DNA of 32,897 bases from Chloroflexota bacterium. Its GTDB lineage: Bacteria > Chloroflexota > Anaerolineae > DUEN01. Positions 10,032 through 32,857 of this stretch are shown in pieces. The stretch is from positions 1 through 32,897 of the forward strand of contig JAADGJ010000066.1 in assembly GCA_013152435.1 (NCBI GenBank). The letters are read 5' to 3'. The position numbers and the translations under genes were made by a program. Numbering within the stretch: the stretch's first letter is position 1; the number at the start of each line of letters is the position of its first letter. Below the pieces are notes generated by a model, which had not been told where the DNA came from, made no database searches, and worked only from the letters and a program-made list of their open reading frames with translations.

Positions 10032-10083
10032 CCCTATCGCCTACATCCTATGCATTTGCACATCCATTCTAAGGAGGAGACCG

Positions 10084-10323
10084 ATGAAGATCCGAATCGA
10101 GTACTGTGCCGCTTGAAACTACACGCCCAGAGCCGTCAGGATGACGGAACAGCTTCTGTCGGACTTCGAACCCCAGATCGAGGAGCTCACACTGATCCCC
10201 TCTGATGGCGGCGTCTATGAAGTTGAGGTAGACGGCGAGCTGATTTACTCGAAGAAACAGACGGGGCGCCACGCGGAGTACGAAGAGGTGAAGCAAGCGA
10301 TACAGAAGAAGCTCGGTCAATAG
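10084..10323 (+). CDS. SelW/Rdx-family selenoprotein with in-frame TGA (Sec11)
   Basis: The reading frame starts at ATG 10084 after AAGGAGGAG, runs through TGA at 10114-10116 and ends at TAG 10321-10323. Reading TGA as selenocysteine gives a 79-residue protein beginning MKIRIEYCAAUNYTPRAV. This is the SelW/SelT/SelH (Rdx) thioredoxin-like redox family, with the C-x-x-U motif at Cys8/Sec11 in the expected place. The conserved C-terminal part has a GGVYEVEVDGELIYSKKQTGR block, the family's G-x-FEV-x-V-x-G signature. A SECIS-like hairpin lies just after the TGA. An automatic caller would report only residues 20-79 from ATG 10141, losing the active site. It probably acts as a small cytoplasmic thiol/selenol oxidoreductase. 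SelA, SelB, SelD and tRNA-Sec are not in this window. A strong terminator follows, so it is a single-gene unit. Confidence 0.88.
10128..10158 (+). promoter_or_regulatory. bacterial SECIS-like hairpin
   Basis: CCGTC (10133-10137) pairs with GACGG (10143-10147) around the loop AGGAT. CAGA (10128-10131) with TCTG (10155-10158) may extend it. The loop begins 21 bases after the TGA and has a G at its second position. This agrees with the published bacterial SECIS model: a small apical loop with a G among its first two bases, 16-37 nt from the UGA. It overlaps the coding sequence, as bacterial elements do. Confidence 0.75.
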
Positions 10324-10344
10324 GGATCGGTCAGCAGAAAATCG

Positions 10345-10371
10345 AAAGCCCTCCCAAATGGGAGGGCTTTT
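10345..10371 (+). terminator. intrinsic terminator after the selenoprotein gene
   Basis: A perfect 11-bp stem (AAAGCCCTCCC, loop AAAT, GGGAGGGCTTT) ending in a run of four T residues. It starts 21 bases after the stop codon. The sequence is near-symmetric, so it may also terminate the convergent zinc-ribbon gene on the other strand. Confidence 0.92.
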
Positions 10372-11031: not shown

Positions 11032-11105
<74 letters not shown>

Positions 11106-11356: not shown

Positions 11357-11431
<75 letters not shown>

Positions 11432-22042: not shown

Positions 22043-23536
22043 ATGGCCAAGGTGAGGACCCGATACGTCTGTCAACAGTGCGGCAGCACCCACATGAAAT
22101 GGATGGGGCGCTGTCCGGACTGCGGGGAATGGAACACGCTGGTCGAGACCCTCGTCGAGGAGGAGCGTACGTCCAGCCGCCGGCCCCGGATCGCCTCGGA
22201 CGCGGCGGCGATCCCCCTGCCGGACATCGCCGCCGACGGCTTCGAGCGCATCCCGGTCCCCATCGGGGAGTTAAGCCGCGTGCTGGGCGGCGGCATCGTG
22301 CCCGGCTCTGTCGTTCTCATCGGCGGCGACCCGGGCATCGGCAAGTCCACGTTGCTCCTTCAGATGTGCGCGCTGCTGACGGGGGACCGGCCGGTCCTCT
22401 ACGTCTCAGGCGAGGAGTCCGCCGCTCAGATCAAGATGCGTGCCACCCGGCTGGGGATCAACCACGAGAACCTCTACATCCTGGCTGACACGCGCCTGGA
22501 CACTATCCTGGCCCAGATCGAGCAGATGAACCCACGCCTCGCCGTGGTCGACTCCATCCAGGCCATCTACACCGACGCGCTCACCTCGGCCGCGGGGTCG
22601 GTCAGCCAGGTTCGAGAGTGCGCATCCCAGCTCCTGCGCCTGGCCAAAGCGCAGGCGATCCCCATCTTCCTGGTGGGCCATGTCACCAAGGAGGGCACCA
22701 TCGCCGGGCCGCGAGTGCTGGAGCACATGGTGGACACCGTGCTCTACCTGGAGGGGGAGCGATTCCACACCTACCGCATCCTGCGCTCCGTGAAGAACCG
22801 GTTCGGATCCACGAACGAGGTGGGCGTGTTCGAGATGGTGGAGCGCGGCATGCAGGAGGTGCCCAATCCCTCGGAGGCGTTCCTGGCCGAGCGAATGCCC
22901 AACGCGGCCGGCTCCGCCATCGCCGTCACGCTGGAGGGCACACGCCCGCTACTGGTGGAGATCCAGGCGTTGTCCTCCACGACGAGCTTCCCCTCGCCGC
23001 GACGCACCGGCAACGGGGTCGATTTCAACCGCCTGCTGCTCCTGGTGGCCGTGCTGAGCAAGCGGGTTGGGCTGCGGCTGAGCGATCAGGATGTGTTCGT
23101 CAACGTGGTGGGCGGCCTCACCGTTCGGGAGCCGGCGGCTGATCTGGCGGTGGCGTGCGCCATCGCCTCCAGCGTGCGCAACGTCCCCGTCGCCGCCGAC
23201 CTGGCCATCGTCGGCGAGGTCGGCCTGTCGGGCGAGCTGCGCTCGGTCCATCAGCTGGCCCGACGGCTGAACGAGGCCGGGCAATTGGGATTCCGACGCT
23301 GCCTGGTGCCCAAGAGCGGGCTGCGGCGCCTGGACCGGCCAGCAGACGGGATCGAGGTCATCGGGGTGCGCACGCTCAACGACGCGCTGGAGGTCGCGCT
23401 GGCCAAGTGTCCTTCTTCTGCCTTCGACCTGCCCCGCCTCGGCCCGGGTCCTTCGGGGAGAGCCGAGAAAGGCAGGTGCAGGCCGGAAAAATGGAGTTTC
23501 CGTGGAGGAGACGAAAGGGCACATCCGCTGGAGTGA
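22043..23536 (+). CDS. radA: DNA repair protein RadA with a repeat-derived C-terminal tail
   Basis: A RecA-like ATPase that helps branch migration and recombinational repair. The zinc finger is CQQCGSTHMKWMGRCPDCG (about 10-28), Walker A is GGDPGIGKST (about 94-103), and the RadA signature KNRFG is at 251-255. A Lon-protease-like C-terminal domain follows, with DVFVNVVGGLTVREPAADLA. The family normally stops near residue 455; here about 42 more residues (from about 456) are translated from the ~98-bp dispersed repeat at 23411-23508. The tail CPSSAFDLPRLGPGPSG is therefore unlikely to be conserved. cutA follows 31 bases later. The gene has its own promoter. Confidence 0.95.
   Translation: MAKVRTRYVCQQCGSTHMKWMGRCPDCGEWNTLVETLVEEERTSSRRPRIASDAAAIPLPDIAADGFERIPVPIGELSRVLGGGIVPGSVVLIGGDPGIGKSTLLLQMCALLTGDRPVLYVSGEESAAQIKMRATRLGINHENLYILADTRLDTILAQIEQMNPRLAVVDSIQAIYTDALTSAAGSVSQVRECASQLLRLAKAQAIPIFLVGHVTKEGTIAGPRVLEHMVDTVLYLEGERFHTYRILRSVKNRFGSTNEVGVFEMVERGMQEVPNPSEAFLAERMPNAAGSAIAVTLEGTRPLLVEIQALSSTTSFPSPRRTGNGVDFNRLLLLVAVLSKRVGLRLSDQDVFVNVVGGLTVREPAADLAVACAIASSVRNVPVAADLAIVGEVGLSGELRSVHQLARRLNEAGQLGFRRCLVPKSGLRRLDRPADGIEVIGVRTLNDALEVALAKCPSSAFDLPRLGPGPSGRAEKGRCRPEKWSFRGGDERAHPLE
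23411..23508 (+). repeat. dispersed ~98-bp repeat, copy B
   Basis: Matches the minus-strand copy at 192-290 almost throughout. It forms the 3' end of the radA reading frame and has its own nested arms (ACCTGCC/GGCAGGT, CTCGGC/GCCGAG) and a CCTTCGGGG tip. Sequence identity between the copies ends at TTTCCGTGGAGG; the flanks are unrelated. Confidence 0.8.
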
Positions 23537-32679: not shown

Positions 32680-32835
32680 ATTCGCATCAACTGAACAGCA
32701 TGGGCGAGGCCCCCCAGGGCTTTTTCAAAGTCAGTGATGGAAATCGGGATGGTAGGAACACCCCGCGTGTCGCCCGACGCAAGATATTCCCCTGATCATC
32801 GACCGCGGGAAAACGGCCCTCATCCCCCAACCCCC

Positions 32836-32857
32836 CTTCTCCCAAGCCCGGGAGAAG
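32836..32857. repeat. second intergenic-repeat hairpin at the right end
   Basis: CTTCTCCC (32836-32843) pairs with GGGAGAAG (32850-32857) around AAGCCC, preceded by a C-rich run. The pattern is like widespread short repeats of other bacteria with CTCTCCC and GGGAGAG arms. The stretch 32564-32897 has no gene I can support. Confidence 0.5.

Follow-up and report, generated by a model that had tools for sequence, protein, structure and literature searches.

A SelW-like gene from a Chloroflexota bacterium whose in-frame UGA very probably encodes selenocysteine

We asked how an in-frame TGA is read in a short gene of the SelW-like family, located in a 32,897-nucleotide stretch of a Chloroflexota genome (hereafter the window). 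A standard ORF finder reports only positions 10141–10323 of the plus strand, a 60-amino-acid frame from which the active site is absent, just as the initial annotation had anticipated. Read from the ATG at 10084, the frame continues to a TAG stop at 10321–10323 and is interrupted solely by the TGA of codon 11 (10114–10116, plus strand). The selW-like gene of the Rdx family delimited in this way (10084–10323, plus strand) comprises 79 codons with a putative selenocysteine (Sec) at codon 11, and its 79-residue read-through product begins MKIRIEYCAAUNYTPRAVRMTEQLL; positions 10324–10371 are 3′ flank. The TGA falls on the U of a C-x-x-U active-site motif (TGT GCC GCT TGA, 10105–10116, plus strand), and a Shine-Dalgarno region, AAGGAGGAG (10074–10082, plus strand), lies just 5′ of the ATG and is, by direct reading, identical in a same-genus relative. 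Both the codon assignment and the strong ribosome binding site of the initial annotation therefore held. Together, the comparisons described below make it highly probable that the gene encodes a bacterial SelW-like selenoprotein, with UGA inserting selenocysteine at the active site.

The proposed kinship with SelW/Rdx proteins was evaluated using a profile query with Cys written at the U position. Pfam Rdx (PF10262) matched residues 2–74 of 79 (2.2e-24; 85.9 bits versus a cut-off of 22.6), and the NCBIfam SelT/SelW/SelH models NF041051 (92.7 versus 88) and TIGR02174 (67.8 versus 34.2) also exceeded their cut-offs, bearing out the family assignment. An AlphaFold2 model with Cys in place of Sec (pLDDT 96.1) shows the thioredoxin-like Rdx fold, in which the CxxU motif (C8-A-A-U11) follows the first strand (residues 2–8) and precedes a helix (residues 14–31). 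The best PDB matches of the model are all SelW-related proteins, with TM scores of about 0.9. The 4.97-Mb genome contains no further Rdx gene. From the family we infer that the product would be a small thiol/selenol oxidoreductase, in which Cys8 and Sec11 may form a reversible selenenylsulfide.

Next, we examined the conservation of the UGA. Rdx homologues were found in 17 of 41 related genomes, each with exactly one internal stop, a TGA at the same position. A scan covering some 85,000 species, performed with five query sequences and with peptide patterns that exclude the U codon, likewise returned TGA at the Sec codon in 80/80 nearest homologues. By their record titles, these derive from Chloroflexota, Actinomycetota, Planctomycetota, Acidobacteria, Bacillota-type thermophiles, Latescibacterota, Neomarinimicrobiota and others, the nearest named ones belonging to Ardenticatenaceae. 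C8 and position 11 are invariant in alignments of 17 and 32 homologues. Cys forms of the family (TGC or TGT) are present in other classes of Chloroflexota, and the Sec/Cys label switches at least six times on a poorly resolved tree of 155 proteins. Relative to the same-genus relative, which retains the TGA, codons 1–10 carry two synonymous and no amino-acid changes and codons 12–79 carry 24 synonymous and five amino-acid changes, such that 26 of 31 changed codons in the whole gene are synonymous. Because these changes are mostly synonymous, we conclude that both flanks of the TGA are under purifying selection. By these comparisons, we take the UGA to be old and selected.

A bacterial selenocysteine codon is expected to be followed by a SECIS element, for which the published model specifies a loop of 3–9 nt, a stem of 4–16 bp, a distance of 16–37 nt from the UGA, a G in the first two loop positions and a minimum free energy (MFE) of −7.5 or lower (PMC13188914). 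The stem-loop CCGTCA-GGA-TGACGG at 10133–10147 (plus strand; +17 to +31 after the UGA) agrees with all of these constraints: it has a 6-bp stem and a 3-nt GGA loop, 22 nt from the UGA, and an MFE of −8.7 kcal/mol was obtained for the segment from +9 to +40. The initial annotation had described a compact hairpin whose loop starts 21 bases after the TGA, which is correct if a 5-bp stem with the loop AGGAT is counted, and had suggested a SECIS prediction; beyond the agreement with the model, codon choice and covariation argue for the element. The loop G, at 10139 (+23 after the UGA), is invariant among Sec homologues. In a comparison of 109 distinct Sec with 46 distinct Cys sequence windows, leaving out two Sec homologues (L179 and L182) that were misparsed by the motif finder, G occupied +23 in 109/109 Sec but only 13/46 Cys homologues. 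The residues encoded at this codon in the Sec forms are S, R, G and W, all of which permit G at the second codon position, and Ser is encoded there by AGY in 55/55 cases, compared to 11/38 elsewhere in the same windows. Similarly, the four core pairs were complete in 79/109 Sec and 0/46 Cys homologues.

Synonymous shuffling yielded a consistent picture. The mean six-pair score of the Sec homologues was 5.12, compared to 4.04 ± 0.08 for synonymous shuffles, whereas observed and shuffled scores of the Cys homologues were both 3.09; the shuffles drew on a codon table taken from the genes of the window, which is approximate for other species but was applied alike to the Cys control. In the selW-like gene itself, 130 of 20,000 synonymous-codon randomizations retained all six pairs and the loop G. 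This proportion, and the recurrence of the TGA and the hairpin position in more than 100 homologues, indicate that the hairpin is more than chance. Furthermore, pair +18/+30 underwent six switches between Y-R and R-Y on the tree, each requiring a two-sided change, and pair +21/+27 underwent two such two-sided switches. With the register fixed, 30/109 Sec homologues, about a quarter, lack at least one of the four core pairs and may pair differently. On this evidence, we identify the hairpin at 10133–10147 as the SECIS.

The signals flanking the gene matched the initial annotation less well. It had placed a good promoter around the unit, which was not borne out by a promoter scan that found zero sigma-70-type promoters. 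Of the good terminator that it had also described, the structure is real, in that an 11-pair inverted repeat lies 3′ of the gene (10345–10370, no strand assigned) as a possible terminator, but the scan scored it as a terminator on the minus strand only. On the plus strand the T run is short and partly within the stem, and the terminator is weak. The unit looks monocistronic. Two tRNA-Ala genes with CGC and GGC anticodons, 95% identical to each other, lie near one another downstream of the selW-like gene (11032–11105 and 11357–11431). Elsewhere in the window, positions 89–317 and 23409–23511 belong to a repeat, roughly 200 bp long and dispersed through the genome, whose copies are 80–93% alike and recur in many of the other genomic loci examined (L010/L022, L013, L017/L024, L058, L062, L064/L065 and L243). 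The RadA-like ORF at 22043–23536 carries a partial copy as an in-frame C-terminal fusion. Toward the end of the window, 143 bp (32715–32857) match the first bases of contig C62 at 94% identity, pointing to a repeat located at contig ends.

We then considered the selenocysteine machinery of the genome, the complete absence of which the initial annotation had named as an observation that would speak against its reading. Profile matches over the cut-off identified an intact selB (contig C62), selD (contig C61) and selA (contig C147), the C-terminal part of the latter lying at the end of contig C96, such that the gene is split at contig ends. The three genes expected by that annotation are therefore present, with the reservation that the fourth, tRNA-Sec, is absent from the draft contigs. 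selD carries a UGA at its catalytic position (CAGUASK) and itself needs UGA read-through, and two FdhA genes have a UGA within the motifs HCARLUHSPTV and HQARIUHSATV. These further selenoprotein genes, SelD (L017, C61) and FdhA (L236, C140:523–2631; L238, C28:85541–86296), each have a hairpin after the UGA. Since the selW-like gene, selD and two fdhA genes carry an in-frame UGA, at least four genes would depend on its read-through. UGA also serves as an ordinary stop, with TGA terminating 11 of the window's 25 ORFs.

The search for tRNA-Sec in the organism's own assembly (149 contigs, 95.8% complete) was negative by several approaches. The Rfam covariance model found canonical tRNAs, and its matches were rejected as tRNA-Leu, Ser, Cys, Arg, Gly, Lys and others. 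A tRNA-Sec pattern that, judged by eye, fits 17 aligned relatives returned nothing from the assembly beyond one tRNA-like sequence (L043 1495–1567, on C58), which was rejected by stem reading for its short variable arm and CTC anticodon loop; this sequence is uncalled by ARAGORN and scores 27.3 bits against the Rfam tRNA cut-off of 29. BLAST of the same-genus tRNA-Sec gene and its flanks gave no match in the assembly, and tRNA-Sec was found neither beside selA, selB or selD nor at the site syntenic with the same-genus genome, in which it sits between genes that are here on two separate contigs (C3 and C76). The neighbourhood of tRNA-Sec is not conserved within the family, with L045 and L046 aligning over the tRNA alone. 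Among the relatives, tRNA-Sec exceeded the Rfam cut-off in 16/16 that have the selW gene, including the same genus, and ARAGORN confirmed the TCA anticodon in 12 of these. It was also present in 18/24 relatives without the selW gene, and the association of SelW with tRNA-Sec is thus consistent, not strong evidence. An assembly gap is the simplest reading because the genome is in 149 contigs and selA is cut by a contig end, and the missing tRNA-Sec is likely such a gap.

Several other explanations of the TGA have to be weighed against selenocysteine insertion. That the TGA is an artefact of sequencing or assembly within a normal CxxC Rdx gene would be in keeping with a draft metagenome-type assembly and with the Cys forms of other Chloroflexota classes. 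However, the same codon is TGA in an independently assembled same-genus genome, as in all 17 relatives with the gene and the full set of 80 nearest homologues, and the Cys homologues show no hairpin constraint; we consider an error already refuted by these homologues and its remaining chance vanishingly small. We likewise attach negligible probability to the gene being a pseudogene, or its true product being the 60-residue protein from 10141, even though that frame is what the standard ORF call delivers. The first ten codons differ from the same-genus relative by synonymous changes only, in line with the 26/31 overall, C8 is invariant across the aligned homologues, and it is the ATG at 10084 that the ribosome binding site serves. 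Moreover, the hairpin itself contains the ATG at 10141, and a product starting there would lack both the active site and the first strand.

Non-canonical decoding, either through reassignment of UGA or through a recent loss of the Sec machinery with the gene now decaying, draws on the failure to find tRNA-Sec in the assembly, and we judge it very unlikely. Against it, 11 of the 25 window ORFs use UGA as an ordinary stop, selB is intact, and selD and two fdhA genes also have UGA at Sec positions, with no signs of decay. In addition, tRNA-Sec occurs in every one of the 16 relatives with the gene, same genus included, and the assembly consists of 149 contigs, with selA itself broken at a contig end. 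That the organism truly has no canonical tRNA-Sec, and that an unrecognized tRNA reads UGA in SelW, SelD and the two FdhA proteins, strikes us as exceedingly improbable. At the level of sequence, the comparisons establish a recoded reading frame and a constrained SECIS and show that selA, selB and selD are present. In the preferred reading, selenocysteine insertion, ribosomes would start at the ATG at 10084, and the hairpin at 10133–10147 would bind SelB carrying Sec-tRNA(Sec) at the UGA (10114–10116), SelB-dependent decoding being predicted from the protein families. Selenocysteine would thereby become residue 11 of the 79-residue, thioredoxin-like product, placing a Cys8-x-x-Sec11 redox motif where helix 1 starts.

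The locus is a clean example of how standard ORF calling truncates a gene and removes its active site. It also reveals a codon-level signature for the bacterial SelW SECIS, a G fixed at +23 with Ser there always encoded by AGY, which could aid the annotation of other truncated selW genes; the understanding of selenocysteine decoding is unchanged. SelW-like proteins with PF10262 and CxxU are listed as a prokaryotic selenoprotein family (PMC9312934; the family is also listed in PMC1794560), one for which Sec-using organisms have hardly any Cys homologues (PMC1794560) and with 427 Sec versus 56 Cys forms in marine samples (PMC2398784). The universal TGA of the nearest homologues agrees with this predominance of Sec. 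The family is thus already described, and the gene is a further member in which we found no distinguishing feature: it shares with bacterial SelW-like selenoproteins the domain, the CxxU motif and a UGA with a downstream bacterial SECIS, and differs in host lineage only (a Chloroflexota class). Bacterial Cys-containing SelW-related proteins (PDB 2fa8, 2obk, 2oka, 2ojl, 2p0g and 3dex) have the same fold, the model superimposing on these six entries with a TM score of about 0.9 and about 1 Å rmsd over 73–77 columns. Mouse selenoprotein W (PDB 2npb) has the Rdx family and thioredoxin-like fold in common with the product but is distant (Foldseek TM 0.72, 26% identity), and its SECIS is in the 3′ UTR, whereas here the element is inside the coding region. 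The Chloroflexota Cys homologues, unlike the selW-like gene, have TGC or TGT for the fourth motif residue and lack the hairpin constraint. Compared to the SECIS of E. coli formate dehydrogenases (FDH; fdhF/fdnG), which also begins about 16 nt after the UGA, has a loop G and is read by SelB (PMC13188914), the hairpin described here is shorter, at 15 nt with the triloop GGA, and belongs to an unrelated protein.
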